A DNA stretch of 64,000 nucleotides from a virus. Under the pieces are notes generated by a model. The model had not been told where the DNA came from. It saw only the letters and a list, made by a program, of their open reading frames with translations, and made no database searches. The position numbers and the translations under genes are program-made. The DNA is taken from the IMG/VR virus record IMGVR_UViG_3300036770_007327, positions 1-64,000 of that record; one strand, given 5' to 3'. How positions within the stretch are numbered: position 1 is the stretch's first letter; each line of letters opens with the position of its first letter. Shown one piece after another: positions 7,752-35,014 of the stretch.

Positions 7752-8579
7752 ATGGACCATCTCACAATTTCAGAAGATTTTTATACGATACAAGGCGAGG
7801 GCTTTTCTACCGGGGTACCTGCTTATTTCGTACGGCTAAAGGATTGTAATTTAACGTGCGGCGCGAGTTTACAGAAGGTAAAAGACGTTAAAGGGGCAGG
7901 AGAAGGCGAGACGGAGTCGGGAAGCTTTCAAGGAGACCTTCATTCAGCCGGCAATGCTACTTGGACTTGCGATACTATTCCGGTATGGATATTCGGCCAT
8001 AAGAAGCCTTTTAGTTATCTTTTCGATAAATGGGATCAAAATAGACTACTATCTGATATTGCGTCAGGGCTAATCCATGTTATATGGACGGGAGGTGAGC
8101 CTACTCTGCCCCGCAATCAAAAGTCTATTGTAAGTTTTGATGCTGCGTTTAAAGACTTCTGTAAGATGAATGATTTGTTTTTCAATCCATATTATGAGAT
8201 TGAGACGAACGGTACTTGTGTAATTCAAGAGGATCTGCTTTTAAAACTTAATCAAATTAACTGTAGTGCTAAATTAGCGAACTCTGGAATGACATTAGAG
8301 CAGCGTGTTGTCGCTGATGCTATCGAATCTATTAAATCGCATCCCTTTCATACTTTTAAGTTTGTTATTTCTAACGAACAAGATTTGATTGAGGCGTTTG
8401 ATACGTTTATTAATCCGTTTAAAATATCTCTACATAATGTGTGTATTATGCCGGGACTTGATGATCAAGATAATTTTCACGAAAGAACTCTCTTCTCTAT
8501 GGAGATGGCGAAGAAGTATAAAGTGAGAGGTCTTACCAGGCTTCATGTGAGTGCCTGGAATAAGACTACTGGAGTTTAA
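7752..8579 (+). CDS. queE: 7-carboxy-7-deazaguanine synthase QueE (radical SAM)
   Basis: 275 residues. Converts 6-carboxy-tetrahydropterin to 7-carboxy-7-deazaguanine, the committed step to preQ0 and preQ1. Motifs: TIQGEGFSTGVPAYFVRL, then C32 and C36 of CNLTC, and C73 in TWTCDT. The three Cys hold the 4Fe-4S cluster; the last is separated by an inserted loop, as in other phage and some bacterial QueE proteins. WTGGEPTLP at 112-120 is the SAM-binding GGEP motif. The gene stands apart from dpdA, queF, queD and the probable folE also in this window, but belongs to the same DNA-modification pathway. The downstream gene follows after one base. Confidence 0.92.
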   Translation: MDHLTISEDFYTIQGEGFSTGVPAYFVRLKDCNLTCGASLQKVKDVKGAGEGETESGSFQGDLHSAGNATWTCDTIPVWIFGHKKPFSYLFDKWDQNRLLSDIASGLIHVIWTGGEPTLPRNQKSIVSFDAAFKDFCKMNDLFFNPYYEIETNGTCVIQEDLLLKLNQINCSAKLANSGMTLEQRVVADAIESIKSHPFHTFKFVISNEQDLIEAFDTFINPFKISLHNVCIMPGLDDQDNFHERTLFSMEMAKKYKVRGLTRLHVSAWNKTTGV

Positions 8580-8580
8580 T

Positions 8581-9243
8581 ATGGCGTATTTAAATCATAA
8601 CATACCGACCATTACGTGTCTTATTCGTAATGAATATCTTTTTAATTTTGAAAAAGGTTATAAAGAGTTTACAAAGGCAGATGTTCATAGTGTCGCTTCT
8701 ATTCAAAAGAGAGTTCCGCTCTTCGAAGCGTTTCTTGAAAACGGAGTGAATTGGACTCGAAGACCTATACATGCTTTCTGCTGGAGAGAGGACGCAGAGA
8801 TTCTACCTCTTAGCGAACATATGTATTGGGATTGCTTCTCATCTTATGTTGATGTTCAAGTAAGGGAAAGAATGTCTGGTCTTCGAGCGGATTTAATTTC
8901 CCTTACCAGTCAGAAGCGTCAAGGCATTTATATGTTTACGCTCGACTGGTCTCATGAAAATAGAAATATGTTAGATACAAATTTCTCCGAGACCCCTGAA
9001 CATAAATGCGGGCATCTGTTTAAAATGGATAATGGCAATTATTTTATATATCCTAATAATAGAATTATTTGGAATGATACTGCTTGGACATTCAATAAAA
9101 TTGATAAAAATCCTGGATATAAAATCGATATGAATGTATATTCAGTGGAAAATAAAAATAATTTTGAAACTGATTATAATTATTTTACAAATTTTAATAA
9201 TGTCGATCAAAAAACAACAGGAAATAATTCATTCAATAAATAA
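8581..9243 (+). CDS. Conserved phage protein of unknown function next to queE
   Basis: 220 residues from the ATG at 8581, chosen over an upstream frame opening inside queE. It contains IRNEYLFN, VASIQKRVPLFEAFLENGVNW, RRPIHAFCW, YMFTLDW and NNRIIW. From memory this pattern belongs to an unnamed conserved family in phages and bacteria. Its placement immediately after queE suggests, but does not show, a link to the modification pathway. Its 3' end overlaps the SET-domain gene by 44 bases. Confidence 0.65.
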   Translation: MAYLNHNIPTITCLIRNEYLFNFEKGYKEFTKADVHSVASIQKRVPLFEAFLENGVNWTRRPIHAFCWREDAEILPLSEHMYWDCFSSYVDVQVRERMSGLRADLISLTSQKRQGIYMFTLDWSHENRNMLDTNFSETPEHKCGHLFKMDNGNYFIYPNNRIIWNDTAWTFNKIDKNPGYKIDMNVYSVENKNNFETDYNYFTNFNNVDQKTTGNNSFNK

Positions 9244-9610
9244 CAATACCAAAACAAGATTAAAGCCATCTACGGTATGTGATGGGGTGGGGGTATTTGC
9301 TTTAATTAATATTAAAGAAGGAGAAAATATTTTTCCAGATATTATTTCCGATAGCAATCTTATTGAATGGGAATATATAGATAACAATGTAGTTAAAAAA
9401 TATTTAAACTCTCTATGTAATACAGATAATAAAGGAATATATCTTTCAAGGCTGCCTAATGAGATTAACATCTCATATTATGTTAATCATTCTGATAACC
9501 CCAACGTTTTTCATAATTTAGACTTGGATCAATATTTCGCTCTCAAGGAAATATATGCGGGGGAAGAAATATTATGTTGTTATACAGAGCAGGAAAAAAA
9601 AGACTTTTAA
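9200..9610 (+). CDS. SET-domain protein (putative lysine methyltransferase)
   Basis: 136 residues from the ATG at 9200. SET signatures are in order: DGVGVFALINIKEGENIF near the N-terminus, then YYVNHSDNPNVF (NHS-x-x-PN) and the C-terminal ALKEIYAGEEILCCY (GEE-x-x-x-x-Y). These bind S-adenosylmethionine and form the lysine channel. The domain is small and nearly complete, without the Cys-rich post-SET region. SET proteins are uncommon in phages; it might methylate a host protein such as a ribosomal or chromatin-like protein. Target unknown. Confidence 0.75.
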   Translation: MSIKKQQEIIHSINNNTKTRLKPSTVCDGVGVFALINIKEGENIFPDIISDSNLIEWEYIDNNVVKKYLNSLCNTDNKGIYLSRLPNEINISYYVNHSDNPNVFHNLDLDQYFALKEIYAGEEILCCYTEQEKKDF

Positions 9611-9624
9611 TATAAATAAGAAAA
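9611..9624 (+). promoter_or_regulatory. Perfect T4-type late promoter TATAAATA (DUF1501 cassette)
   Basis: TATAAATA at 9611-9618, six bases before the ATG at 9625. It is directly in front of the first gene of the DUF1501/DUF1549 cassette, so this cargo is placed under phage late control. Confidence 0.75.
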
Positions 9625-10890
9625 ATGGATAGACGTAATTTTATACAAGTTGGTGGGTTAGGGGCTTTCGGTCTCACCTTCAGCGATATTTTAAGAGCAC
9701 AATCATCGTATGATGGACCTGCTCCAAAAATAAAATCGGTAATCAATATATTCTTACCAGGGGGTATGTCAGTTCAAGAATCATGGGACCCTAAACCGAA
9801 CGCACCGGTAGAATATAAAGGGCCCTATAATGCTATAGATACCTCTGTACCTGGCATTCAACTTTCAGAACTATTTCCTAATGTTGCGAGAATTATGGAT
9901 AAGGCTACAATTATTAGGTCTATGACTCACGGGGAAGCAGCCCATGAGAGAGGCACTCATAATATGTTTACAGGGTGGAAACCTTCCCCCGCGCTCAAAT
10001 ATCCCGCTCTCGGCTCTATTGTATCGCACGAACTTGGTATACGAAATAATTTACCCGCTTATATTTCTATACCCAATCAAGCAAATGAGTTTGATACTAC
10101 AGGGTTTATCTCGTCCAAGCATGGAACATTTAGTCTTGGATCTGATCCTGCTGATCCTAATTTCAAAGTTAGAGATTTAACTTTGCCGGATAATATAACT
10201 ATTGAGAGATTTGATAGGAGAAAAAATATACTCGAAACTGTAGATAACAAATTTAAGAGTATTGCCGCGTCTGATAATGTATCAGCAATTGATGAGTTTT
10301 ATCAAAGAGCATATAGTCTCATATCATCAAAAACTGCTATTGAGGCTTTTGATATTTCAAAAGAAGATGCTAAAGTTAGAGAAAATTATGGAAATAACCA
10401 GGCTGGTCAGAGATTGTTAATGGCGCGGCGGCTTGTAGAAGCAGGTACTCGCTATATTACAGTCACTTACGGTGGTTGGGATCATCATGACGGCATTCAA
10501 GGTGCTATGAAATCAAATGCGCCTGCGCTTGATAAAGCCCTGAGTCAACTTATTGTTGATTTAGAGGAAAGAGGAATGTTAAATGAAACTCTTGTTTTAG
10601 TTACTTCCGAGTTTGGCAGAACCCCTAAGATAAATAATACGGCAGGTAGAGATCACTGGCCGAGAGTGTTTAGCACATTCGTAGCAGGCGGGCCTGTAAA
10701 GCGTGGATTTGTATATGGAGCGTCAGACTCTCTTGGAGGAGAAGTTGAGGATACGCCAGTATCTCCTGGAGATATATCAGCAACTGTTTTTAACCTACTA
10801 GGTATAAATCCAGAGAAGACGCTCATGACTCCAGATCTTAGACCAATTATGATTTCCCCCGGAAAAATCTTAACGGATATTTTCGGATAA
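9625..10890 (+). CDS. DUF1501 family protein, Tat-exported, copy 1
   Basis: 421 residues. An N-terminal twin-arginine signal (RRNFIQVGG then a hydrophobic stretch, about residues 3-25) directs it to the periplasm. The body belongs to DUF1501, distantly related to sulfatases and alkaline phosphatases, abundant in Planctomycetes and Verrucomicrobia and of unknown substrate. Visible signatures: INIFLPGGMSVQESWDPKP, YGGWDHHD, TSEFGRTPKIN and GRDHWP, the last three being family metal-site and core segments. Length matches the family. It shares AFDISKEDAKVREN-type segments with the second DUF1501 gene (13288-14538), so the two are paralogues. First gene of an exported-protein cassette. Family call firm; function unknown. 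Confidence 0.85.
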   Translation: MDRRNFIQVGGLGAFGLTFSDILRAQSSYDGPAPKIKSVINIFLPGGMSVQESWDPKPNAPVEYKGPYNAIDTSVPGIQLSELFPNVARIMDKATIIRSMTHGEAAHERGTHNMFTGWKPSPALKYPALGSIVSHELGIRNNLPAYISIPNQANEFDTTGFISSKHGTFSLGSDPADPNFKVRDLTLPDNITIERFDRRKNILETVDNKFKSIAASDNVSAIDEFYQRAYSLISSKTAIEAFDISKEDAKVRENYGNNQAGQRLLMARRLVEAGTRYITVTYGGWDHHDGIQGAMKSNAPALDKALSQLIVDLEERGMLNETLVLVTSEFGRTPKINNTAGRDHWPRVFSTFVAGGPVKRGFVYGASDSLGGEVEDTPVSPGDISATVFNLLGINPEKTLMTPDLRPIMISPGKILTDIFG

Positions 10891-10898
10891 AAAAAAAC

Positions 10899-11393
10899 AT
10901 GAATAAAAAAACAACCCTAATAGTGATAGCAGCGCTTCTATTTGTTCAAAATAGTCACGCTGATAATAGTAATTTTTTAACTCGGATAGTTAAAAAAATT
11001 GCAGAGGCTTCACAGCCGGCCAATATTAACGGTAACCTAAAAATATATACGGTAGCAAAAAAGCAAGTAGGCACTTATTATAGGCCTGGTGTAAAGGCGC
11101 AATGCGCCAATTTTGTTGGGCATGTTGTCTCAAAAGCCGGTATTGAAAAGCCTGCTTCTGCTAGCATGGCTCGGGCATGGCTCAAGTGGGGAAAACCGGT
11201 TAGTTGGTCCAATAAAAAGCCGGGCGATTTAATTATTACCTGGAGGGGCAGTCGGGGAGGCTCGTATGGCCATATTTTAATATACGCAGGAGACGAAAAA
11301 GCGATACATCGATCTACAAGTGGCAAACTTGTTTCATATGTAGATACGGATCGATATCAATCTAAAGTTCTTGGAGTGCGTCGAGCAGACTAA
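10899..11393 (+). CDS. Secreted NlpC/P60- or CHAP-like peptidase
   Basis: 164 residues with a signal peptide (residues 1-21, MNKKTTLIVIAALLFVQNSHA). The catalytic Cys is in KAQCANFVGHVV and the His in GSYGHILIYAGD, in the order expected for NlpC/P60 and CHAP-type cysteine peptidases; PGDLIITWRG between them matches. Such enzymes cut peptide bonds in peptidoglycan. It lies between the two halves of the DUF1501/DUF1549 cassette and is followed by a terminator, so it could be a second cell-wall hydrolase or a helper of the cassette. Confidence 0.7.
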   Translation: MNKKTTLIVIAALLFVQNSHADNSNFLTRIVKKIAEASQPANINGNLKIYTVAKKQVGTYYRPGVKAQCANFVGHVVSKAGIEKPASASMARAWLKWGKPVSWSNKKPGDLIITWRGSRGGSYGHILIYAGDEKAIHRSTSGKLVSYVDTDRYQSKVLGVRRAD

Positions 11394-11416
11394 AATTAAC
11401 ATTAACAAAAAAATTA

Positions 11417-11450
11417 AACCCTTTCTTCTTTCGAAGGAAGGGTTTTTTTT
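11417..11450 (+). terminator. Rho-independent terminator after the peptidase gene
   Basis: CCCTTTCTTC / GAAGGAAGGG stem with a TTTC loop (one mismatch), followed by eight T at 11443-11450. It separates copy 1 and the peptidase from the DUF1549/DUF1553 gene. Confidence 0.85.
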
Positions 11451-11462
11451 GTGTAAATTGCT

Positions 11463-11477
11463 TAAATAATAATTAGG
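11463..11477 (+). promoter_or_regulatory. TAAATA late-type promoter (DUF1549 gene)
   Basis: TAAATA at 11463-11468, nine bases before the ATG at 11478 and 13 bases after the terminator's T-run. Confidence 0.5.
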
Positions 11478-13283
11478 ATGAAGGCAAAAATTATTATCTT
11501 GTTTGTCGGTCTTTTAGCACTAATGTCAAGTGCTCAAGAATATGCGGAAATTAACAATAGATTAAACCAAATCTATAAAGAAAAAAATATCCAACCCGGA
11601 GGTAGAATATCCGATGAAAAATATATTCGTCGAGCCTATCTACAAATAGCGGGGAGAATCCCAACTATAAATGAATATAATGAATTCATTTTAAACACAG
11701 ACCCAAACAAGCGACACAAACTGGTTGATAAATTGATTGCCAGTGAAGATTATGTTTCTCATTGGTTTAATTATTGGGCAGATATCCTTAGAACAGAAGA
11801 CAGATTTAATGTTAACTATATGGTTGGTGAGCCTTATATTGATTGGATTAAATCTTCAATAAAAGAAAACAAGCCGTATGATACTTTTGTAAAGGAAATT
11901 ATCACCGCTACTGGAACTGTTTATGAGTCTCCCGCGACGGGGTATTTTTGGAAAGATAGAGGAATGCCTCTTGATAATTTAGCAGGTACCTCTGAAATAT
12001 TTTTTGGAACAAATATAAGTTGCGCTCAGTGCCATGATGATCCATTTAATGATTGGACCCAAATGGATTATTATAGATTTGCTGCCTTTTTTGTTCAAAC
12101 TCAGGAAGCGGCAGGCACAAAAGAAGAGAAAGAAAATATTAATAAACTTCGAGACTATGTAATAGAAACTCGAAAAAAATATGAGAGTGAATCTGCCAGT
12201 GAGTCTCCTTCTGTAGAGCCAGATGAGTTGACTAAAAAGATTATTGCTCGGGGAACGGAAAACAATATAACTCAAATATTACGCGCATCTAATATAGCGA
12301 TAGAAGTTAATAAAGATCGCAAAATGAAGTTGCCTCATGATTATAAATATGAAGATGGCGAACCTAATCAAAGTGTTACGCCGGCCTTCTTATTCGGCAG
12401 CAAAGACGTGAAGACTCCTGAAGATTATCGCAAAGATTTTGCTGATTGGGCCGTATCAAAAGATAACCCCTATTTTACAAGGAATATTGTAAACAGGTAT
12501 TGGAACGCTGTATTCGGAGTCCCTATAATAACCCCTATCGAAGAGATATCTACAACAACAAATATTCAAGATGAAAAACTAATATCTCTTTTAGAAAAAA
12601 TATTTAAAGAGCAAAATTATGATACTAAAAAGTTTTTGGCTACTCTTTATAAAACAAATCTATTTGAAAGATTTAGTTATGTTGAGGAAAGTTTAGATAA
12701 GTATAATTTTCAAGGGCCCTTGCTACGAAGGCTCTCTGCGGAACAGGTTTGGGACTCCTTACTTACCTTATCTGTGGATAATGTAAACTATTTTAAATCT
12801 ACATATTCGGCAGAATATAATACTCTAATGAATGTAGACGCATCTAAAATAACTATAGAAGACTCTATTAAAATGGTAGATACCTATAATAAAATACGCA
12901 GCGCAAAATATGAGACGGCCCAAAAATCAAATGGGCTTGTTCTTATTAGAGCATCTGAAATAACTATACCAAACGCAACAACAAATATATTGAGAGAATT
13001 AGGGCAATCAGAAAGATTACTTATACAAGACTCTACCAGAGAAGGGTCAGTAACTCAATCTATAATGTTTATGAACGGGCCCATTTCAAGTATAACAACC
13101 GATAAGAATTCTGCTCTAATGAAGAGTATACAAGGCAAAGAGGCTAAAGATGTAGTAGATATTGTGTTTAAATCCATCCTACAGAGATTGCCATCTATAC
13201 AAGAGAGAGATTTATTCTTACAGTATCCTAAAGAGGATTTAATATGGGCTTTAACCAACTCACACGAATTTAAATTTAACTAA
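11478..13283 (+). CDS. DUF1549/DUF1553 (PSD1-type) protein with CxxCH motif
   Basis: 601 residues with a Sec signal peptide (residues 1-19). The N-terminal half is DUF1549-like: RISDEKYIRRAYLQIAGRIP, a YVSHWFNYWADILR segment, and FFGTNISCAQCHDDPFNDW. The C-A-Q-C-H could bind heme c or a metal, as in planctomycete relatives. The C-terminal half is DUF1553-like: NPYFTRNIVNRYW, LLRRLSAEQVWDSL, LGQSERLLIQDS and FMNGP. It is shorter than typical planctomycete members and lacks extra cytochrome or concanavalin domains. In those bacteria the gene is normally beside DUF1501, exactly as here. Biochemical role unknown in any organism, to my knowledge. Confidence 0.85.
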   Translation: MKAKIIILFVGLLALMSSAQEYAEINNRLNQIYKEKNIQPGGRISDEKYIRRAYLQIAGRIPTINEYNEFILNTDPNKRHKLVDKLIASEDYVSHWFNYWADILRTEDRFNVNYMVGEPYIDWIKSSIKENKPYDTFVKEIITATGTVYESPATGYFWKDRGMPLDNLAGTSEIFFGTNISCAQCHDDPFNDWTQMDYYRFAAFFVQTQEAAGTKEEKENINKLRDYVIETRKKYESESASESPSVEPDELTKKIIARGTENNITQILRASNIAIEVNKDRKMKLPHDYKYEDGEPNQSVTPAFLFGSKDVKTPEDYRKDFADWAVSKDNPYFTRNIVNRYWNAVFGVPIITPIEEISTTTNIQDEKLISLLEKIFKEQNYDTKKFLATLYKTNLFERFSYVEESLDKYNFQGPLLRRLSAEQVWDSLLTLSVDNVNYFKSTYSAEYNTLMNVDASKITIEDSIKMVDTYNKIRSAKYETAQKSNGLVLIRASEITIPNATTNILRELGQSERLLIQDSTREGSVTQSIMFMNGPISSITTDKNSALMKSIQGKEAKDVVDIVFKSILQRLPSIQERDLFLQYPKEDLIWALTNSHEFKFN

Positions 13284-13287
13284 TATT

Positions 13288-14538
13288 ATGAAAGCGCAAA
13301 ATAGACGACAATTCATATCAAATATAGCAAAAGCAGGCCTAGGGGTTTCTGCTCTGTCCTATATACCTAAATCATTTGCTTCCCAAAATACAGGTAAGGC
13401 AAAACATATTATATATATCTATATGGAGGGTGGAATGTCTCATCTTGATACATTCGATCCAAAAGAGCATCCCGAGACAAAAGGTAAGTTTAGTAAAATA
13501 TCTACTTCTGCCGACGGTGTGTATATTTCTGAACACTTAAAAGGTATAGCGAAACATATGGATAAAGCCGCTATTGTGCGGTCTATGGCAGTTACGACTG
13601 GAGACCACGCAGGGGCTCAATATAACGTTAGAACATCTTATAAGCAAATAGGCACTATAATCCACCCCGCTCTAGGCGCTTGGATGGCTAAATTTAACAA
13701 ACAAGACACGACCTTACCAAGCAATGTTCTAATATCTGGGCCTGCTAAACACCCCGGCTCGGGTTGGATGCCTAAAATTTATTCCCCCATACCGGTTATT
13801 GATCCATCTAAAGGTCTTCAATACTCTGATATTAAAGATATAGAAATGTTTAAATCGAGATGGGAGATACTAAACAAACTCAATAAGAACATTAATGAGA
13901 ATGCTAAATCCCCTGAAGTAAGAGCATATGTTGAGTTCTATGATGAAACAATAAAACTTCTACAAAGCAAAGAACTTGAATCGTTTGATATTAGCAAGGA
14001 AGATAAAACCTTACGCGAGACAAAGTATGGTAATAATCGCTTCGGTCAGGGCCTCTTGCTAGCGAGAAGACTAGTAGAAAATGGAGTTTCTTTTGTAGAG
14101 GTCAAATCTGGAGGCTGGGATACTCACGTTAATAACTTTGATGCCTTAGAAACATCCTTGCCTCAGCACGACCAATCAATAACCGCTCTTATAGAGGATT
14201 TACAAGAGAGGGGATTGCTCGAATCTACTCTAATTGTTGTAGCAACAGAGTTTGGTAGAACCCCTATTATAAATGTTAATGATGGAAGAGACCACTGGCC
14301 TGGTGCTTTTTCTTGCGCTCTAATAGGAGCGGGCGTTAAGGGAGGAACAGTCTTTGGTAGCACTGACGAAAAAGGCGCTATTGTCGCTGAGGGTAGTAGA
14401 AAGATAGACCCTAAAGACTTTAACGCTACTATTGCTAAGATTGCCGGGCTACCACTTGAGGAGGAATTCTTCTCACCGAACGGCAGGCCGTTTAAAATAG
14501 CCAGTGATGGTAAGCCTATAGATGAAGTAATTGGATAA
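13288..14538 (+). CDS. DUF1501 family protein, Tat-exported, copy 2
   Basis: 416 residues, four bases after the DUF1549/DUF1553 stop, so co-transcribed. Twin-arginine signal NRRQFISNIAKAGLGVSAL at residues 5-23. Core motifs YMEGGMSHLDTFDPK, SGGWDTH, TEFGRTPIIN and GRDHWPGAF match copy 1 and the family. A DUF1549/1553 plus DUF1501 pair is the standard planctomycete/verrucomicrobial operon; the extra copy 9625-10890 makes this cassette larger than usual. Closed by a strong terminator. Exported by Tat, so folded, probably with metal, in the cytoplasm before transport. Confidence 0.85.
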   Translation: MKAQNRRQFISNIAKAGLGVSALSYIPKSFASQNTGKAKHIIYIYMEGGMSHLDTFDPKEHPETKGKFSKISTSADGVYISEHLKGIAKHMDKAAIVRSMAVTTGDHAGAQYNVRTSYKQIGTIIHPALGAWMAKFNKQDTTLPSNVLISGPAKHPGSGWMPKIYSPIPVIDPSKGLQYSDIKDIEMFKSRWEILNKLNKNINENAKSPEVRAYVEFYDETIKLLQSKELESFDISKEDKTLRETKYGNNRFGQGLLLARRLVENGVSFVEVKSGGWDTHVNNFDALETSLPQHDQSITALIEDLQERGLLESTLIVVATEFGRTPIINVNDGRDHWPGAFSCALIGAGVKGGTVFGSTDEKGAIVAEGSRKIDPKDFNATIAKIAGLPLEEEFFSPNGRPFKIASDGKPIDEVIG

Positions 14539-14540
14539 AA

Positions 14541-14568
14541 AAAGGGCCCCTTAAGGGGCCCTTTTTTC
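14541..14568. terminator. Bidirectional terminator GGGCCCCTT/AAGGGGCCC
   Basis: Perfect 9-bp stem at 14544-14552 / 14553-14561, A-rich on the left and T6 on the right. It can stop the DUF1501 operon (+) and the convergent lipoprotein gene (-), whose stop codon abuts it. Confidence 0.88.
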
Positions 14569-14821
14569 AAGGCACTCTGTTAACTGTTCTCCAGTCCTTT
14601 ACTTTTTCGAGATATCTAGTTTGTTGGATAGACTTTTTTATAAGTTCATCAGAAACTATATAGTTATTTTCCCCATCAGGCAAATTCGTGCTCTCTATTA
14701 CGGGCAATCTAGTATATGCTTCCCATTTAGGCTCAATAGGAAAAATACTATATTTTATGCTCGGGTTAGATGTTTTACATCCTACCGTTAGGAAGGCTAA
14801 AGATAATAAAAGGTATTTCAT
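14567..14821 (-). CDS. Small lipoprotein, possible outer-membrane spanin
   Basis: 84 residues with a lipoprotein signal: MKYLLLSLAFLTVGC, lipobox L-T-V-G-C, lipidated Cys15. The mature part is about 70 residues, Pro-containing and charged, with a helical end. Small lipoproteins of this size in phages are often o-spanins (Rz1-like), but no dedicated motif confirms this. It could instead modify the host surface. Second gene of a minus-strand pair with 14828-15109. Confidence 0.6.
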   Translation of the reverse strand: MKYLLLSLAFLTVGCKTSNPSIKYSIFPIEPKWEAYTRLPVIESTNLPDGENNYIVSDELIKKSIQQTRYLEKVKDWRTVNRVP

Positions 14822-15166: not shown

Positions 15167-15394
15167 ATGAGAATACTTAATAATGATACTGTTGTTTTAT
15201 GTTGTGGTGGTAATAAGAAATGCCCGGTTGTGGAGCAACAAACGAATGGAATGGTAAAGATTACCGATGACTACGGTCATTCCATTCTTGTTAAAAAAGA
15301 AGAACTCGAAATGGTGCCTGACGCTTTAAAGCATTTCGATTCTAAAAAGCCCTTACAGGAAGCAACTAATACTGAGCAATTGATTTTAGGATGA
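15167..15394 (+). CDS. Small hypothetical protein with CxGxxxxC motif
   Basis: 75 residues. The N-terminal half contains VVLCCGGNKKCPVVE and a small beta-rich region (MVKITDDYGHSILVKKEELEMV). It resembles short T4-like phage proteins in general pattern, but I cannot name it. Overlaps the start of the next gene (ATGA). Confidence 0.55.
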   Translation: MRILNNDTVVLCCGGNKKCPVVEQQTNGMVKITDDYGHSILVKKEELEMVPDALKHFDSKKPLQEATNTEQLILG

Positions 15395-15690
15395 TTGGCA
15401 TTTCTATAGCTAGTTGCGTCGGGCTTACTTTAATATTAAAATACGGCAAGCCTACCAAGCCTATTAGAGATTTTTTCAAAACCAAGGTAGAGGGGCTATT
15501 TGAATGCTCTCTCTGCCTTGGTTTTTGGTCTGGCATAATACATTGTATTCTGCTATCTATTATAGCGCCATCAATATGGCTCTTAATGCTACCATTCGCA
15601 TCCGCAGCCTTATCATGGCTTACAGATACTATTATATTATGTGTAGAAATGGTAGAGATTTATTTAAAGGAAAAACTTAAATCTCCTTAA
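15391..15690 (+). CDS. Small phage membrane protein with CSLCLGFWSG motif
   Basis: 99 residues with about three hydrophobic segments (residues 2-17, 42-62, 65-85). The motif LFECSLCLGFWSGI between the first two is like the C-x-x-C-x-GFW-x-G signature of a small phage and bacterial membrane family (DUF1360-like, from memory). Role unknown. Coupled to 15167-15394 by a 4-base overlap. Confidence 0.6.
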   Translation: MIGISIASCVGLTLILKYGKPTKPIRDFFKTKVEGLFECSLCLGFWSGIIHCILLSIIAPSIWLLMLPFASAALSWLTDTIILCVEMVEIYLKEKLKSP

Positions 15691-16558: not shown

Positions 16559-16573
16559 TCAATTCAACCTTAT

Positions 16574-16611
16574 GCCCCGTGGGAAATTAAATTTCCCACG
16601 GGGCTTTTTTT
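16574..16611 (+). terminator. Rho-independent terminator, 15-bp stem
   Basis: GCCCCGTGGGAAATT (16574-16588) / AATTTCCCACGGGGC (16590-16604) followed by seven T. Its left arm contains an in-frame ATG (16572) for the next gene, which is therefore not the real start. Confidence 0.9.
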
Positions 16612-16616
16612 ATTTT

Positions 16617-17051
16617 ATGTATACGGTAAATCTAAGTTGGCAGGAGATTGAAGATGGCTGCGATCATATCGCTGACTATTTTTTAAATAAAAATATTTCA
16701 ACTGTTGTAGGTATTGCTCGGGGAGGTATTATTCCCGCATCTATTATTGCTCGAAGACTTAAAGCAAACTTTATAGCAATAAGCGCAAAATCTTATAATG
16801 AACAAAATGTGAGAGAAACTTTACAGATACAGACTGTTAGTTCTATTGAAGATTTAGATAATGTTTTATTTGTAGATGATATTTGCGACTCTGGGCACAC
16901 CCTAAAAGAGATTAAAAAAATATACAGCCATATTCCTAATTTATATACAGCCGCTATTGTATATAAACAGAACGATAATGTAATCCCGGATCGTTATTAC
17001 ATGCCCGTGTTTAATGATAACTGGATAGTCTTTCCTTGGGAGAAGGACTAA
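16617..17051 (+). CDS. Purine phosphoribosyltransferase (xanthine-guanine type)
   Basis: 144 residues from the ATG at 16617, beyond the terminator. Transfers a ribose-phosphate from PRPP to a purine base. Motifs: VVGIARGGIIPASIIARRL near the N-terminus and VLFVDDICDSGHTL, the 13-residue PRPP-binding motif, at about residues 80-95. Length is close to E. coli Gpt. The likely substrate, guanine or xanthine, fits the guanine-centred pathway encoded around it; base specificity is not certain. Confidence 0.8.
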   Translation: MYTVNLSWQEIEDGCDHIADYFLNKNISTVVGIARGGIIPASIIARRLKANFIAISAKSYNEQNVRETLQIQTVSSIEDLDNVLFVDDICDSGHTLKEIKKIYSHIPNLYTAAIVYKQNDNVIPDRYYMPVFNDNWIVFPWEKD

Positions 17052-17060
17052 ATATAATTA
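17049..17060 (+). promoter_or_regulatory. CTAAATA late-type promoter
   Basis: TAAATA at 17049-17054 overlaps the preceding stop and lies six bases before the ATG at 17061. Confidence 0.5.
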
Positions 17061-17459
17061 ATGATATCATTCAAACGTTTCTGCGAAGAGTTTATACACT
17101 ACGATTCTCAAGTAGCGAGAACAGGGGGCGGTCCTAGCGTATCTAATGCTGCTAGCACTGGTATCTTGAGAAAGCCTAGCCAGGTATCAACCCCGATTGT
17201 AGGAGATACTACATCATTTTCCGGCAATAACGTTTATCTTGTTAAAAATGCTAAGATACCTTTTGAATTAAAACTAAAGGAAAAGGATGGTATGTATAGC
17301 ATTATAATACGAACCAAGGGAGACGATAAGTTTATACCTCTAGCCAGAACCGAATTTAGTAAACAAACAGAGTGCGATTTCGATGATAGAGAAGAAGCAG
17401 TACGAGCAGTAAGAGAATTAATTTTTAGAATTTCTCAAGTTGAAACTCCCCAAGCCTAG
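17061..17459 (+). CDS. Putative capsid-targeted protein, 132 aa
   Basis: MISFKRFCEEFIHYD begins like the targeting peptides (F-x-x-[FL]...E-E), followed by a low-complexity Ser/Thr/Gly linker and a beta-rich C-terminal domain of about 70 residues. The cut-site match is weaker than in the 2.9-7.2 kb genes because Cys-Glu-Glu replaces the usual [IL]-x-E. Unrecognised otherwise. Confidence 0.5.
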   Translation: MISFKRFCEEFIHYDSQVARTGGGPSVSNAASTGILRKPSQVSTPIVGDTTSFSGNNVYLVKNAKIPFELKLKEKDGMYSIIIRTKGDDKFIPLARTEFSKQTECDFDDREEAVRAVRELIFRISQVETPQA

Positions 17460-17472
17460 ATTATATTGATAT

Positions 17473-17826
17473 ATGCCAAGATTAACTTGTAATATTACTG
17501 GTCATTCCTATTACGCTACAAATGGTCAAATAGAATCAAAAGCAAAGGCTGTTGAATTGCCGGTAGAAGAGTTTCTCGATATTTATGTAAGTAAAAAGGC
17601 TGCTTCCCTTCTTCAAAAGGGTCATACAATACAAGACATTAGACATCTTGTAGAGTGCGCTGAAGATATTCCAGAACTAAACGATTCCAGAATAGAAAAG
17701 ATAACTTCTATTTATGTTCAATCTAACGTTAGACGAGTGCTTTCTAACTTTACTACAATCTCCTCTCTAGCCATCGACGAGAGCGACTCTTCAGTTTCAA
17801 AGTATATTGCTTTCCTAAAAAAATAA
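17473..17826 (+). CDS. Hypothetical protein, 117 aa
   Basis: MPRLTCNITG opens a small protein with a probable beta N-terminus and a helical remainder; no membrane segment or signal. I have no family to offer. It lies just upstream of the terminator and promoter that set off the nrd operon. Confidence 0.5.
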   Translation: MPRLTCNITGHSYYATNGQIESKAKAVELPVEEFLDIYVSKKAASLLQKGHTIQDIRHLVECAEDIPELNDSRIEKITSIYVQSNVRRVLSNFTTISSLAIDESDSSVSKYIAFLKK

Positions 17827-17854
17827 TAAAAAAACCTTTTTAAGCGGTTATTTT

Positions 17855-17899
17855 AACATAATGGGTTTCAATAAGTTATCCATTATGTTTTTTATTTTT
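17855..17899 (+). terminator. Rho-independent terminator before nrdA
   Basis: AACATAATGG (17855-17864) / CCATTATGTT (17880-17889) with a 15-nt loop, then a T-rich run. It isolates the nrd operon from upstream transcription. Confidence 0.75.
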
Positions 17900-17924
17900 A
17901 ACCTTTCATTACCCTACCATACTT

Positions 17925-17942
17925 TATAAATAGAAATACTAT
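17925..17942 (+). promoter_or_regulatory. Perfect late promoter TATAAATA (nrdA)
   Basis: TATAAATA at 17925-17932, ten bases before the nrdA ATG at 17943. Confidence 0.7.
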
Positions 17943-20900
17943 ATGAACAATACTATCAGCGTTATTAAGCGAAACGGCGACAAGGCCAAATTTGACGAGA
18001 AAAAGATTAGAGACACTGTAAAGCGCGCCTGTAAGAACCTTAAAAGCGTAGATTCAAAGTTAGTTATATATAACGCAGAGGTTAAACTATACGACGGGGT
18101 CACCACAAAGGAAATTGATGAGTCCTTGATTAAATCTGCGCGTGCATTGGTCGAGGAAGACCCTGAATATAAGTATGTTGCTGCTCGATTGCTTCTTTTT
18201 ACTATCTATAAATCCTGCTTCGGTCAAAGCACTGACGAGTCTGTGTTTGATATGCAATATAAGGCTTGCTTTAAAACAAATCTCGATTCGCTTATTAAGG
18301 AAGGTATAGTAAATCCTGAGCTTAAGAAGTTTGATTTTAAACGTATCGTAGAAGCTCTTGACCCTTCTAGGGATGAGCTATTTGCGTTCGAAGGCCTTGC
18401 TGCTGTCGCTGAAAGATATCTCTTTAAAGTTAAGAATCGTATTCTTGAAACCCCGCAAGCTTGGCTTATGCGAGTCGCTATGGGACTTTCTATTGGAGAG
18501 AAAGAAGAAGAAAGAACAGATAGAGCCATTGAGTTCTATGAGATGCTTTCTACTTTCTCTTATATGTGTTCTACCCCGACTCTTTTCTATTCCGGGTCGA
18601 CTAAGAACCAGCTTAGTTCTTGCTTCTTAAATACCTTTGAAGATTCTATTTTTGGTATCTTTGATGGCTTACATCAAGAGGCTCAAAAGTCTAAGTTTGC
18701 TGGCGGTCTTGGTATGGATTTGACTCCATTCAGAGCAGGTAATGCGTACATTAACGGTACCAATGGATATACCCAGGGAGCTGTTTTCTTCTGGAAACTT
18801 TTCAATGATATGCTTGTAGCGGTAAACCAATGCTTTCCAGGCAATACAAAAGCAATTACACGAAATGGTATTAAATCTCTACAAAATATTGAAGCAGGTA
18901 ATGATTATGTCTTAACAAAGAATGGGTGGCGGTTAGTAGAAGAATTATATTATTACCCTAAAGATGGTAAGGAGCTTGTCGATATTAAGCTTAGACACGG
19001 ATACGAGCCAGTGACTTCAACCAAGGGACATCCTTTCTATACCATTACTGGCCATCGAAGCGATGTCACTGGTCTTTGTAACAAAGAAGTACTTAAATTA
19101 TTAGAGCGGGGAGAACAGAAAGTTGAATGGGTTGAAGCTAAAGATTTAAAGATCAATCAATATATCGGTTTTCCTATCCCAACAGATACAGAACCTCATC
19201 GAGATTGGAAAGTTGAGGATGCTAAATTATACGGCCTCATACTTGGCGATGGCTGGGTAACTGAATCGAAGTCTGAGATGGGAATTTGTTTTAACTCTGA
19301 AACGAATATAGAGACAATTGAATTTGTTTTGAACTATTTAGATAAAAGGAAAATTAATTATTGGGTTAATGATGGCAAACAGATTGAAGGTCTTAGTGAT
19401 AAATATGTATCGTTTGTATGGTCCTATAAAAAGCATATTGATAAGATGCCTTTTAAATACGACGATATTTATTGCGAAAAAAGAAAAAAACGCATTAGCG
19501 GTAGATTATTAACTATGAGAAATGAGTTAATTCACCATATTATTGAGGGCTTAGTACTATCTGACGGTCATGTTCATTTTAATAAAGAAATAACGTTTTA
19601 TAATAATAGCGAAGAACTTATAGACACAGTAAGATATCTCCTACTTAAAGTAGGGGTATTGTGTAGTGGAAATATAAACAAGGGTAAAATAAATGGTAAT
19701 GCAAAATTAAAAGGTATCTGTAAGGTTAATTCTGATGATAGCTTTGTACTTAGAATACCTGCTTATGAAGAATTGGCCACGATTCTAGATATAACCCCCG
19801 TAACTAAAAAACATTGGCTAACATATAACGGAATGGTCTTTACTAGAATAAAAAGTATTTCATATTCTGCCCGAGATTTTCCTATTGATTTATACGATTT
19901 AAAGGTTAATGGTGAACCAAATTATACGTTAATATCGGGAGGATTAGTTCATAATGGCGGCAAGCGTCGTGGGGCTGGTTGCGGCTATCTTGAAACTTGG
20001 CACTATGATATCGAAGACTTTATTGTTCTTAGAAAGAATGTGGGAGACGAAAGACGTCGAACCCATGATATGAATACCGCTAACTGGATTCCAGACTTGT
20101 TTATGAAGCAGGTAAACGTCGACGGGCCGTGGTATCTTTTCTCGCCTGACGAAACTCCTGACTTACACTCTCTCTTCGGTGCTGCGTTTGAAGCGAGATA
20201 TTGGGATTATGTTGAGAAGGGCAAGCGCGGTGAGCTTAATCTCTTCAAAGAAGTAAAGGCTAAAGATCTTTGGAAAAAGATGCTCGCTATGCTTTTTGAA
20301 ACCGGTCATCCCTGGATTACGTTTAAAGATCCTTGTAATGTAAGATATACTAATCAGCATGTCGGGGTTGTTAACAGCTCGAACCTTTGCACTGAAATAA
20401 CTCTCCATTCAAAGGCTACTCAATATGAGCCAAATAATAATAGAGCGATTAAAGAGTATGGTGAAACTGCTGTTTGTAATTTAGGTTCTATTAACTTAAA
20501 AGAGCATCTAATCAAGTTAGATGGAAAATATACAATCGATTATAATAAACTCGCTAAGACTATCAAAGCGGGCACGAGAATGCTTGATAACGTTATAGAT
20601 ATTAACTTCTACCCGACCCAAGAAGCTAAAAACTCTAACGTCAGGCATCGCCCGATCGGGATGGGGTCTATGGGCTGGCATGATTTGTTTATTGCTCTTG
20701 ATATTAACTACGATTCAAACGAAGCAGTTGAGCTTAGTGATAAATTGTACGAATTTATTTCTTATCATACTATTCTTGCGAGTAGTGAATTAGCTAAAGA
20801 GCGTGGCAAGTATAGCACTTATGAAGGGTCTCTTTGGAGCAAGAACATATTGCCGATTGATACATATAAGGAATTGGTAGCCTCGAGAATTAATAAAGCG

Positions 20901-21560
20901 GAAGATGACTACTTTATTAACAGAGGAGAAGAACTTGATTGGTCAGTTGTTAGGAATCATATTGAAGAATACGGTATGCGTAATTCGAATACAATGGCTA
21001 TTGCCCCGACCGCTACTATTTCTCAAATCGTAGGATGTTCTTCTTGTACCGAGCCATACTTTAACGTATTGTTTGTTCGCTCTGTTTTAGGAGGAGACTT
21101 TACAGTTATTAACGAATGGTTTGTTAATGATATGAAGTCGAGAAATATCTGGAATCACAATATGATTACTAAGATTAAGCAGGTCGATGGAGACCTTTCC
21201 AGAATACCTGAGATACCAGCAGACATTGCTTCTAAGTATCGCGACGCATTTAATATGGACCAGTTCCAATTGCTTAAAGCTGCGACAGCGAGAGGTAAAT
21301 GGATTGATATGGGAATGTCGGTCAATCTTTTCAATAATAAAACTAGCACAAAGTATCTACACGAGCTTTATACCACTGCCTGGAATATTGGATTGAAGAC
21401 CACCTACTACTTGAGAAATAAGAGTGCTTCTCAGGTAGAGAAGGCTTCTACTACTTCTGTATCTAGCTTTGAACCTATGGCATTAGAATCTCTATCCGAA
21501 AGCGAGCTTGAAAGTAAGGTATGCCGCTTAGACGATCCAACTTGTGAATCTTGCCAATGA
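17943..21560 (+). CDS. nrdA: Ribonucleoside-diphosphate reductase alpha subunit with intein
   Basis: 1205 residues including a 375-residue intein; the exteins together give about 830 residues. Reduces ribonucleotides to deoxyribonucleotides. An ATP-cone (residues 1-95) gives allosteric control. Active-site parts are visible: LSSCFL, SSNLCTEI and TAVCNLGSINL; the C-terminal C-x-x-C (PTCESCQ) re-reduces the site. The sequence around GGKRRGAGCGYLETWH and RRRTHDMNTANWIPDLF is the bacterial/eukaryotic class I subtype also found in Chlamydia rather than the T4 NrdA type. The stop overlaps a small gene before nrdB. The intein +1 residue is Gly, so correct splicing is uncertain. Confidence 0.93.
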   Translation: MNNTISVIKRNGDKAKFDEKKIRDTVKRACKNLKSVDSKLVIYNAEVKLYDGVTTKEIDESLIKSARALVEEDPEYKYVAARLLLFTIYKSCFGQSTDESVFDMQYKACFKTNLDSLIKEGIVNPELKKFDFKRIVEALDPSRDELFAFEGLAAVAERYLFKVKNRILETPQAWLMRVAMGLSIGEKEEERTDRAIEFYEMLSTFSYMCSTPTLFYSGSTKNQLSSCFLNTFEDSIFGIFDGLHQEAQKSKFAGGLGMDLTPFRAGNAYINGTNGYTQGAVFFWKLFNDMLVAVNQCFPGNTKAITRNGIKSLQNIEAGNDYVLTKNGWRLVEELYYYPKDGKELVDIKLRHGYEPVTSTKGHPFYTITGHRSDVTGLCNKEVLKLLERGEQKVEWVEAKDLKINQYIGFPIPTDTEPHRDWKVEDAKLYGLILGDGWVTESKSEMGICFNSETNIETIEFVLNYLDKRKINYWVNDGKQIEGLSDKYVSFVWSYKKHIDKMPFKYDDIYCEKRKKRISGRLLTMRNELIHHIIEGLVLSDGHVHFNKEITFYNNSEELIDTVRYLLLKVGVLCSGNINKGKINGNAKLKGICKVNSDDSFVLRIPAYEELATILDITPVTKKHWLTYNGMVFTRIKSISYSARDFPIDLYDLKVNGEPNYTLISGGLVHNGGKRRGAGCGYLETWHYDIEDFIVLRKNVGDERRRTHDMNTANWIPDLFMKQVNVDGPWYLFSPDETPDLHSLFGAAFEARYWDYVEKGKRGELNLFKEVKAKDLWKKMLAMLFETGHPWITFKDPCNVRYTNQHVGVVNSSNLCTEITLHSKATQYEPNNNRAIKEYGETAVCNLGSINLKEHLIKLDGKYTIDYNKLAKTIKAGTRMLDNVIDINFYPTQEAKNSNVRHRPIGMGSMGWHDLFIALDINYDSNEAVELSDKLYEFISYHTILASSELAKERGKYSTYEGSLWSKNILPIDTYKELVASRINKAEDDYFINRGEELDWSVVRNHIEEYGMRNSNTMAIAPTATISQIVGCSSCTEPYFNVLFVRSVLGGDFTVINEWFVNDMKSRNIWNHNMITKIKQVDGDLSRIPEIPADIASKYRDAFNMDQFQLLKAATARGKWIDMGMSVNLFNNKTSTKYLHELYTTAWNIGLKTTYYLRNKSASQVEKASTTSVSSFEPMALESLSESELESKVCRLDDPTCESCQ
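18831..19955 (+). mobile_element. Intein with LAGLIDADG endonuclease in nrdA
   Basis: In-frame insertion, NrdA residues 297-671. It starts at Cys297 (CFPGNTKAITRNG, splicing block A), has a TKGHPFYTI block B, and ends with LISGGLVHN (blocks F/G, terminal His-Asn). Two LAGLIDADG motifs lie between (LYGLILGDG at about 429-437 and IIEGLVLSDG at about 532-541). The insertion splits VNQ|GGKRRGAG, a conserved active-site-proximal segment typical of homing targets. The first residue after the intein is Gly, not Cys, Ser or Thr. Confidence 0.9.
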
Positions 21561-21781
21561 AAACTTTTCACAAACATGAACTAAATAAGCTTACAGATTT
21601 GCAAAAAGCATTTCTATTATTAATCGTTGAAAAATATACTGGTAATAAATATTCAGATTTATCCTTTATAAGACGAGATGTACTAGGAGCAATGCTTAAT
21701 GATGTTCAGGATAAGATAACAAAAAAAGGCTTTAAACAATTACAAAATATAATCAAAAAATTAAATTATGAAAACAGGTAA
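21557..21781 (+). CDS. Small hypothetical protein between nrdA and nrdB
   Basis: 74 residues from the ATG at 21557 (ATGA overlap with the nrdA stop); the upstream TTG is unnecessary. Helical, basic, with a C-terminal KKGFKQLQNIIKKLNYE. It overlaps the nrdB start by 14 bases. Not a glutaredoxin or thioredoxin; no C-x-x-C. Unknown role, but its coupling suggests it is expressed with the reductase. Confidence 0.55.
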   Translation: MKTFHKHELNKLTDLQKAFLLLIVEKYTGNKYSDLSFIRRDVLGAMLNDVQDKITKKGFKQLQNIIKKLNYENR

Positions 21782-22769
21782 ACTATTCGGAGATGTAAAA
21801 GAGGGGGTAAATCAAATTTTACCACACGTAAATAAATGGGCTTGGGACCTTTACAAGAAGGGCAAAAATAACCATTGGAATCCAGAAGATATCGCAATGA
21901 CCAGAGATATTCAAAACTGGTCTAACGGGACGCTCAGTGAGGATGAAAAACTCGTTGTAAAGCGTTGTCTCGGCTTCTTTGCCGGGTCTGAATCACTAGT
22001 AGGTAATAATCTTGTTACTCTTTTCGGATATATTACTGATCCGGAATGTAGGCAATATTTATCACGTCAAATATGGGAAGAGTGTCTACACAATGATACC
22101 ATTGTATATATGTGTGATTCTATTCAAGATTTAAAGATTGAAGAAATCTATGAAGCATATAGCAATATACCTGCTATTGCCGCTAAGGATAACTTCTTGA
22201 TGGAAGTGACAAGACGTATCAATACCAAGAATATTGATTCTTCTACTATCAGAGGCAAGCAAGATATTATTAGAACAAGCTTTCTTTATTGGATTATCTG
22301 TGAAGGGACCTTTTTCTTCTCTGGATTTGCTATGCTCCTCGCTCTTAAAAATAAGCTTCCCGGCATTGGGGAACAAATTGAATATACATTGAGAGATGAA
22401 TCATTACATATTCAATTTGGAACACAGCTTATTAGAACGGCTATCGAGCAATACCCGGAGATATGGACCGAAGAGTTTCAAGAAGAGTTAATTGGATACG
22501 TTAAGCAGGCTGTTGAGTTAGAAGTTCAATACGCTAAAGATGTTCTTCCTCGCGGCATCTTGGGGTTAAATTCTAAGATGTTCTTAGAATACATGCAATA
22601 TATCGGCAATCGTAGATTAGAAGCGGTTGGATTGAATTATAGATTTGAAAACGATAAGAATCCTTTTGATTTCTTGTCTGAAGTTCAAGACCTTATTAAA
22701 GCTAAGAACTTTTTTGAAACTAGAGTTATTGATTATCAGTCCGCTGGTGCCCTGGATGACGATTTCTAA
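21768..22769 (+). CDS. nrdB: Ribonucleotide reductase beta subunit, class Ic-like
   Basis: 333 residues. Carries the metal cofactor for the NrdA reaction. All six ligands are present: E75, E105, H108, E179, E211 and H214. At the position of the E. coli radical Tyr122 (four residues after the second-ligand His) there is Ile112; the motif is EECLHNDTIVY. Chlamydia-type R2c proteins have Phe at this place and use a Mn/Fe centre instead of a tyrosyl radical. NrdB here probably belongs with that radical-free type. A nearby Tyr114 is two residues off. A late promoter was not seen; it is co-transcribed with nrdA. Confidence 0.9.
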   Translation: MKTGKLFGDVKEGVNQILPHVNKWAWDLYKKGKNNHWNPEDIAMTRDIQNWSNGTLSEDEKLVVKRCLGFFAGSESLVGNNLVTLFGYITDPECRQYLSRQIWEECLHNDTIVYMCDSIQDLKIEEIYEAYSNIPAIAAKDNFLMEVTRRINTKNIDSSTIRGKQDIIRTSFLYWIICEGTFFFSGFAMLLALKNKLPGIGEQIEYTLRDESLHIQFGTQLIRTAIEQYPEIWTEEFQEELIGYVKQAVELEVQYAKDVLPRGILGLNSKMFLEYMQYIGNRRLEAVGLNYRFENDKNPFDFLSEVQDLIKAKNFFETRVIDYQSAGALDDDF

Positions 22770-22780
22770 TACAAAATGAC

Positions 22781-22791
22781 TAAATATATAT
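22781..22791 (+). promoter_or_regulatory. CTAAATA late-type promoter
   Basis: TAAATA at 22781-22786, five bases before the ATG at 22792. Confidence 0.5.
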
Positions 22792-23025
22792 ATGAACTCC
22801 GGTGTAGCATCTAAACTTACATTATATATACTTATATCATGTATAACAGCATATATAAGCGAGTTTAACAATATTACATTAGTAGACTTGCAAATGCTTG
22901 ATCCCCTACAATGGACAACTAAAGTAATCAGTATACTCCTACCCGGCCTCATTACATGGCGAGCATTTATAGACCAATCCATCACAACCAGCGATATCAT
23001 TAACGATAAAAGCGACAACCTTTAA
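22792..23025 (+). CDS. Holin-like small membrane protein
   Basis: 77 residues with two hydrophobic segments (about 7-22 and 41-58) and a short charged C-terminus. WTTKVISILLPGLITWRAFIDQS resembles a phage small-membrane family I recall from other phage genomes, sometimes annotated as holin-like. No direct evidence of holin function. Sits between nrdB and clpP. Confidence 0.5.
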   Translation: MNSGVASKLTLYILISCITAYISEFNNITLVDLQMLDPLQWTTKVISILLPGLITWRAFIDQSITTSDIINDKSDNL

Positions 23026-23031
23026 TTTTTT

Positions 23032-23649
23032 ATGGCAAATCCAATAGAAGACAAACAAGCTAAGCAATCTGAGCCCAATATCAAAATATTCTTAGATGAT
23101 TTAGATAATAAAACTATACTCTTTTATGAGGAGATAGATGACATTTCAGCTCTACATGCAAATAGATTGTTGTTGAGTATTGATAAAAAGCTTTACAAAA
23201 AGTATTTGAATAAGCAATCTGAAGTCGATAGGTATAACGGCAAGGTTAGCCGCCCTATTATTAACCTTAGGATTCACTCTCAAGGGGGAGATGTTTTTTC
23301 TGCTCTATCTATTATTGATGTAATCAACCAACTTAACTGCGACGTTCATACGTATATCGATGGATGCGCTGCCTCTGGAGCAGCGATGATTGCCCTCCAT
23401 GGCAAAAAGCGATTTATAGGGAAGAATAGTTTTATGCTTCTACACCAACTTCGCGGTTCTCAGTCTGGCAAATTTGAGGACATGCAAGATGAAATCAAGA
23501 ATAGTGAAAAAATAATGCAACTTATTCGCGAAATGGTTAAGGAGAAGAGCAAGATTGAGCCAAAAGAAATTGATGAAATCTTAAAACACGAATGGTGGCT
23601 TACCTCTAAAGAATGTCTCGAATATGGTCTTATTGATGTAATAAAATAA
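23032..23649 (+). CDS. clpP: ClpP-like serine protease
   Basis: 205 residues. ClpP fold with the nucleophile S115 in GCAASGAAM and His138 in FMLLHQL; the IHSQGGDVFSALSIIDVI segment is the conserved G-G-D region of the oxyanion strand. In bacteria ClpP forms a barrel fed by ClpX or ClpA. T4-like phages of marine hosts carry similar genes, proposed to process head proteins or modify host proteolysis. It lacks an obvious pro-peptide. Separated by six bases from the upstream gene, so probably in one operon. Confidence 0.88.
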   Translation: MANPIEDKQAKQSEPNIKIFLDDLDNKTILFYEEIDDISALHANRLLLSIDKKLYKKYLNKQSEVDRYNGKVSRPIINLRIHSQGGDVFSALSIIDVINQLNCDVHTYIDGCAASGAAMIALHGKKRFIGKNSFMLLHQLRGSQSGKFEDMQDEIKNSEKIMQLIREMVKEKSKIEPKEIDEILKHEWWLTSKECLEYGLIDVIK

Positions 23650-23683
23650 TTTGATTTTATTTTTTTATATCATATATTAGTAT

Positions 23684-27401: not shown

Positions 27402-27402
27402 T

Positions 27403-27945
27403 TTATTTCAAAAGTTCTTTTACTGTCTGTAAATTTTTTGACGCGCTTTCATTAGTATTATTGATATAATTGGTAATATTGGAATACCGCTCAGCCTCTT
27501 CTTGTAATATTTTATATATATCTGTTTTACTTTCTACTGCGTTTGGGTCTCTCTTGAAGCTATATATTTCTTTTGCTGTAGATCCCGCATATACATTATC
27601 TATTTCTTTTGATACTCTATATTCTACTCTACTCGCTGCGGAAGATATAGCGTCTCGCTGTTTAGTGCTTGATATATACTCGCTAGTGCTCAGAGATGCT
27701 TCTTGAGAGCTTTTTACTAAATTACTAGCAATTACATCCTCTTTAATATTTTCAACAGCGTTCTTTTTTACCGCTACATATACTACAGCTTCTTTTGCTG
27801 TAGGGTCAATATTATTTTTGTTTTTAATAATTTTAGAGACTATTCTGGTTGACTCATCAGCCTGCTCGTTAAGAGGCTTCTCGTTTGTAAAAACGAGCAG
27901 TTTATTATTTTCCTGAACTAGTTGCTCAAAAATATTATTTGACAT
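27403..27945 (-). CDS. Hypothetical protein upstream of the gp5-like gene
   Basis: 180 residues, helical, Ser/Asn-rich, without a membrane segment. MSNNIFEQLVQE at the N-terminus fits the capsid-targeting motif (F-x-x-L-V-Q-E) with V-Q-E as an imperfect cut site. It is transcribed just before the baseplate hub gene, so it may alternatively be a baseplate assembly factor. A TTAAATA element precedes the ATG by seven to eight bases. Confidence 0.5.
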   Translation of the reverse strand: MSNNIFEQLVQENNKLLVFTNEKPLNEQADESTRIVSKIIKNKNNIDPTAKEAVVYVAVKKNAVENIKEDVIASNLVKSSQEASLSTSEYISSTKQRDAISSAASRVEYRVSKEIDNVYAGSTAKEIYSFKRDPNAVESKTDIYKILQEEAERYSNITNYINNTNESASKNLQTVKELLK

Positions 27946-27993
27946 TTATTATATTTAATGTTGAAATCCTCGTTTTCCAGTATATATTGTATT

Positions 27994-33843: not shown

Positions 33844-33867
33844 AATTCATTTTCTTTCACTAAGTTC

Positions 33868-33882: not shown

Positions 33883-33902
33883 CGACAAAAGGGGTTAAAA
33901 AG

Positions 33903-34990: not shown

Positions 34991-35014
34991 TTATAATAAA
35001 TATATTTAATCAAC

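Follow-up and report, generated by a model that had tools for sequence, protein, structure and literature searches.

Each PSD/PSC domain occurs 41 times in Rhodopirellula baltica (PMC2754498), and in our sequence search the genomes of Planctomycetes-Verrucomicrobia-Chlamydiae (PVC) bacteria each contained 27-75 matching stretches. Our literature search found no functional study of the DUF1501 or PSCyt2/PSD1 families and no account of a PSD and DUF1501 pair in phages. Here we describe such a pair in IMG/VR virus record IMGVR_UViG_3300036770_007327, of which we analyzed 64.0 of 65.65 kb (65,652 bp), referred to as the window herein; "PSD" denotes one protein that contains both DUF1549 (PSCyt2) and DUF1553 (PSD1). 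On the viral side, a short Pseudomonas phage protein carries a DUF1501 domain annotation (PMC5418858), and UniProt A0A6J5M742 ("DUF1501 domain-containing protein [uncultured Caudovirales phage]") likewise places DUF1501 in a phage, but with 13% identity to the window DUF1501 over the alignment. Phages are known to capture host genes; the literature searched describes neither this pair nor its presence throughout a clade and its connection to lysis loci. A clade of uncultured T4-like phages that keeps one pair (dN/dS <0.1), often beside an endolysin, reduces the PSD/DUF1501 problem to a small, expressible and testable unit and offers an initial clue to what these two very large bacterial families do.

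The cassette and its proteins

Four open reading frames (ORFs) on the plus strand fill positions 9625-14538 of the window, and all score above the Pfam cut-offs, bearing out the family identities that an earlier sequence-only reading had assigned. The first encodes an a-type DUF1501 protein of 421 amino acids (9625-10890, E=9e-108), followed by an NlpC/P60 peptidase of 164 amino acids (10899-11393, E=3e-8), a PSD of 601 amino acids (11478-13283) and a b-type DUF1501 protein of 416 amino acids (13288-14538, E=9e-100), which is the constant neighbor of PSD in relatives. The two DUF1501 copies share 39% identity, and their full-domain scores against PF07394 were 361 and 335 bits, compared with a gathering cut-off of 27. 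For PSD, the DUF1549 (PF07583, E=9e-44) and DUF1553 (PF07587, E=5e-27) domains scored 150 and 95 bits against cut-offs of 29.8 and 28.5 and lie in one protein, while NlpC/P60 scored 34 bits against 23. As judged by eye and motif rather than with a predictor, both DUF1501 proteins have Tat-like N-termini (MDRRNFIQ in the a-type, NRRQFI in the b-type) and both NlpC/P60 and PSD have Sec-like ones, in agreement with the four exported proteins proposed earlier. Residues 182-186 of PSD read CAQCH, a sequence motif of the CXXCH type expected of c-type cytochromes. The NlpC/P60 protein matches MepS/Spr in the PDB and is a probable peptidoglycan hydrolase, with Cys69, His125 and His137, read from sequence alone, as its putative Cys-His-His catalytic residues. 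Since the window contains no Amidase_2 gene and NlpC/P60 sits in the cassette, this protein may be the endolysin of the window phage.

The contig belongs to a T4-like phage, as the sequence-only reading had it, to judge from a head module of the gp20/gp21/gp23 type. PHROG matches include the gp20 portal (E=5e-98), a gp21-type protease (E=8e-53) and the gp23 major head protein (E=2e-82), and further head and tail genes encode head closure, Ad2 and sheath stabilizer proteins. The closest isolate portals, from cyanophages, are 31% identical to that of the window. The GC content of the cassette (37.8%, 36.6% elsewhere) upheld the earlier view that it resembles its neighbors and has long been resident. 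Of the strong terminators said to divide the cassette, one good example stood, an intrinsic terminator with a 13-pair stem followed by a T run between NlpC and PSD (11416-11445, plus strand); the plural was overstated, as terminator-like sites across the contig are at chance level (5 found, 4.1 expected).

To our AlphaFold2 model of the a-type DUF1501, built from 56 sequences (pLDDT 87.8, pTM 0.85), the matching folds were nucleotide pyrophosphatases (NPP) and PafA, with Z about 20 over about 245 residues. LtaS was also among the fold matches, and Foldseek returned LtaP and sulfatases with E about 1e-8; the closest viral fold match was A0A6J5M742, the one distant DUF1501 entry in BFVD. A model made from two sequences reached pLDDT 38 and was discarded. 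The modeled core is thus that of the alkaline-phosphatase/sulfatase superfamily, with the fold shared over residues 33-421 at Z about 18-20. However, no full-length sequence similarity to solved members (NPP, PafA, LtaS/LtaP, sulfatases) could be detected, and in the window DUF1501 proteins and their relatives Glu-Phe (EFGR) stands where canonical two-metal enzymes have the Asp-His metal motif. All 56 rows of the alignment have Asp286, His288, His344 and His107, and, by motif spacing, His107 seems to occupy the place of the Ser/Thr/Cys nucleophile. DUF1501 may use a single metal ion or depart from the canonical enzymes in some other way.

Distribution, ancestry and selection of the pair

Single-sequence scans of IMG/VR gave no match, and profiles were required: these recovered 44 contigs with DUF1501 and, besides the window, 45 with PSD, in overlapping sets. 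All 36 contigs with at least 1 kb beyond PSD have the start of a DUF1501 gene no more than 400 bp after it. Six PSD contigs also contain a T4 portal, one of them 171 kb long (G021), and another, found via its portal, is 197 kb; the portals of the window and of these cassette relatives are 56% identical. The gene set running from PSD to the baseplate gene is common to the window (11.5-28.8 kb) and G021 (145.7-162.5 kb) and largely in the same order, except for inserted genes and a local rearrangement of the lysis genes. The earlier suggestion to look for the cassette in related phages was therefore answered by the 45 PSD contigs and by this synteny. In a 53-kb relative (L249), the flanking genes are present and the pair is absent, leaving a clean empty site; within the phage clade, the pair is optional and movable. 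One virus group (L092-L094, L102 and L103) holds three DUF1501 copies of different types.

The claim that the pair is not known from phages also withstood our searches. No INPHARED phage has it, neither protein has a PHROG family, and tblastn of 50,697 phage records returned no PSD and no b-type DUF1501. The only a-type match in those records, MT837425.1 (L003), was rejected as a phage precedent; filed in GenBank as "Bacteriophage sp.", it reads as a piece of actinobacterial chromosome by gene content and high GC. The pair was present in 4 of 43 portal-selected contigs, a figure that we dropped as an estimate of prevalence, because the 154.6-kb genome G081 ends at this locus and its lack of the pair is an assembly break.

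To place the pair among cellular homologs, we compared phage PSDs with 34 cellular rows. Sixteen of the 17 phage PSDs formed one clade (support 95/88), which is sister to four Verrucomicrobiales sequences (100/98) inside PVC diversity. A single clade for all 17 was rejected by the approximately unbiased test owing to L357, whose PSD groups with cellular copies and which may represent either an independent capture or host DNA. The b-type DUF1501 tree agreed with the PSD tree, with a phage clade at 91/92 and the window joining the lysis group at 96/89. The phylogeny of the two DUF1501 copies, proposed in the sequence-only reading, gave a different outcome for the a-type, which fell into separate phage groups: the window with L004, L095 and L098; L120 with L123; L090 with L096; L100 with L101; and L089. 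The contigs listed after the window group are putatively viral, and L357 and some a-type contigs may hold host flank. The a-type thus appears to be a separate lineage that was captured several times. Because of this, and because the terminator divides NlpC from PSD, the four genes do not make up the single cassette that had been described; the conserved unit is PSD plus the b-type DUF1501.

The order of a short PSD followed by a b-type DUF1501 is also found in cells, and the phage pair resembles the PVC pair in its Pfam matches, its CXXCH motif and this gene order. Unlike the PVC pair, it is set among phage genes and forms its own clade. Phage PSDs are 35-41% identical to the Verrucomicrobiales copies and about 570-600 amino acids long, compared with about 700 in Verrucomicrobiales, whose PSDs carry an N-terminal extension with SHD1 that the phage proteins do not have. 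Judged from the trees, the pair was apparently captured once, long ago, from a Verrucomicrobiota-type operon by an ancestor of the T4-like phage clade. Its later diversification has followed that of the phages, and purifying selection on it has been strong, with pairwise dN/dS of 0.017-0.072 at dS 0.3-3 for PSD and the b-type DUF1501; for the a-type, the single pair measured gave 0.19. CXXCH is kept in 53 of 53 phage PSDs, and the phage DUF1501 proteins keep WDxH (47/48), GRDH (46/48), EFGR (42/48) and an RR/KR-type Tat-like N-terminal motif (48/48). The low dN/dS and the near-constant retention of CXXCH and the putative active-site motifs imply that these genes work for the phage. We infer that the host is a PVC bacterium, most likely verrucomicrobial. 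If so, T4-like phages of Verrucomicrobiota would seem to be common in IMG/VR, though no isolate carries the pair.

A possible role in lysis or egress

A T4-late-promoter-like motif, TATAAATA, occupies positions 9611-9618 (plus strand) and ends 6 nucleotides (nt) before the first DUF1501 ATG at 9625, a perfect copy at the position reported earlier; it recurs 5 nt before gp21 and 7 nt before the first of two small genes at 15167-15690. Within the window cassette, no start other than that of the a-type DUF1501 is preceded by this motif. The 8-mer is not enriched contig-wide (21 found, 16.5 expected), but its placement just before starts is, with ATAAATA found within 3-11 nt of starts (for example, at 9611, 15152 and 35698). 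When we inspected 60-nt upstream stretches from relatives, 46 of 67 occurrences of ATAAATA lay 5 nt before the start codon, and 16 such cases came from G081, whose selection did not depend on the pair. In T4 and S-RIM8, by contrast, the motif lies at least 14 nt before the start, mostly 24-38, while here it is 5-6 nt from the ATG. If ATAAATA is the -10 box of a late promoter, a spacing of about 5 nt predicts that the late mRNAs of this clade are leaderless. For PSD itself, ATAAATA lies 3-8 nt upstream in 14 of 25 cases, is usual in the largest group and is also found just before the gene in L323, L325 and L331.

Contigs of the largest group, which are as long as 197 kb, have a single Amidase_2 gene, and PSD is found about 0.9-4.5 kb away from it. 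Conversely, when contigs were selected by the amidase endolysin of the clade, 10 of the 11 with enough flank carried the pair. In L287 and L331, the amidase is on the other side of the pair, tail to tail with DUF1501, and the two genes overlap in L287. A Phage_lysozyme2 ORF abuts PSD in six records, and the a-type DUF1501 of L004 adjoins a PG_binding endolysin-like gene. The link to lysis is not universal; one large group shows it strongly, and the window and L004 are suggestive of it. The earlier proposal that these proteins alter or open the host surface remains plausible and unproven, with linkage to lysis genes on its side in the largest group and not in all. Like endolysins, spanins and depolymerases, the pair has putative export signals, a late-type motif and, in several lineages, proximity to amidase, lysozyme2 or NlpC genes. 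Unlike them, it belongs to no known lysis family, is a two-gene unit and is not in PHROGs.

The reading that we favor, with a probability of roughly 40%, is that PSD and DUF1501 form a late, exported, envelope-acting module that aids lysis or egress. Both proteins would be made in the late phase of infection. DUF1501 would cross the membrane already folded, as a metalloenzyme exported by Tat, and PSD, which may carry a c-type heme, would use the Sec route. Their joint site of action would be the periplasm or the surface of the host, a PVC bacterium and most likely a verrucomicrobial one. There, the pair would attack an envelope polymer or lipid ester, as a hydrolase of the alkaline-phosphatase/sulfatase type and its redox or carrier partner, and the weakened envelope would let the endolysin complete lysis and the progeny exit. 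In a bolder version, which we hold to be doubtful, the pair would be a type of lysis or egress factor not seen before: two proteins of host origin with which T4-like phages of PVC bacteria would take apart an envelope layer beyond the reach of holin, endolysin and spanin; by extension, the dozens of PVC paralogs would be envelope-polymer remodeling enzymes.

Several observations weigh against a role in lysis. In a second group, the pair adjoins the clamp loader gene gp44, with no ATAAATA before PSD and no known hydrolase nearby, and in L325/L326 it lies next to the sheath stabilizer and portal genes. Most contigs of the lysis group are closely related, and the linkage amounts to few independent events. 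Because L249, a lysis-locus phage, cleanly lacks the pair, the pair is dispensable. With Glu-Phe in place of Asp-His, hydrolase activity is not assured. Lastly, a search of 388 Verrucomicrobiota genomes found no portal relative, although such an absence is said to show nothing.

Dispensability and mobility, together with the late-type motif and exported enzymes of a predicted sulfatase/phosphodiesterase fold, would also suit a change to the host surface, in which late removal or modification of a surface glycan by the pair would either keep released virions from re-adsorbing to debris or infected siblings or exclude competitors. The cellular families lie near sulfatase and carbohydrate-binding module genes (PMC5615132), which also fits. 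Such a function does not need the repeated proximity to peptidoglycan hydrolases, and no link to tail-fiber genes was seen; we consider it unlikely, yet a serious candidate. The gp44-linked group, where the pair sits with a replication gene and without the late motif, would instead suit auxiliary metabolism, in which the pair would sustain a host periplasmic pathway (release of phosphate, sulfate or sugar, or redox) that feeds phage production. The genes are host-derived, many host paralogs lie near polysaccharide-degradation genes, and a redox role has been suggested for PSD (PMC5615132; PMC2754498). The other groups, however, look late-expressed and their locus is the lysis region, so we rate this account as rather unlikely. 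The position of the pair in L325/L326 could also suggest a virion component or internal scaffold whose signal-like N-terminus is accidental, which is very improbable, as Tat-like and Sec-like N-termini are kept in essentially all copies and the cellular homologs carry signal peptides (PMC4452313). Although DUF1501 and PSD are hallmarks of PVC chromosomes and MT837425 was mis-filed bacterial DNA, we reject for the window a chimera (the join near 9.6 or 14.6 kb that the sequence-only reading had allowed for) or bacterial contamination, because gene order across the cassette is shared with a 171-kb phage, phage genes flank the cassette on either side and surround the same pair in dozens of contigs (36 of 36 paired occurrences), the trees show a phage-specific clade and the site is empty in L249.

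Flanking genes and further observations

Downstream of the cassette, an 84-amino acid lipoprotein-like ORF (MKYLLLSLAFLTVGC) lies on the minus strand at 14567-14821. It had no PHROG or Pfam match and, by position only, is possibly an outer spanin. The two small genes at 15167-15690 (plus strand) are 40% and 43% identical to their G021 counterparts, and their homologs adjoin the amidase endolysin in cassette relatives. The syntenic flank at 16572-28797 includes PRTase, nrdA, nrdB, a Clp-like protease and a baseplate gene, neighbors as in G021. Within it, the 1205-amino acid nrdA product (17943-21560) has a LAGLIDADG domain at residues 533-574 that is most likely an intein. Further along, the T4-type head genes gp23, gp21, head closure, Ad2 and the gp20 portal span 32350-40182 on the minus strand.

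In the related phages, G021 encodes a protein with CHASE2 (E=1e-35) and adenylate/guanylate cyclase (E=7e-21) matches at 143468-145525 (L242:3468-5525), which is 83% identical in G081. A lysis-locus island in G099/L232 (14028-16703) and its counterparts encodes a small outer-membrane-barrel-like protein (weak match) and an EF-hand protein that looks exported.

Immediately before the cassette, the window encodes a SET-domain protein (9134-9610, E=6e-11), which is unusual for a phage. About 10 ORFs of 210-280 amino acids with low GC (about 0.28-0.36) occupy 46614-54673 on the minus strand and are array-like by appearance. The ORF at 7752-9243 is QueE-like by eye, with no Pfam match, and 29907-30845 encodes a GTP cyclohydrolase (phrog_5949); together, these two genes possibly encode a deazaguanine pathway.

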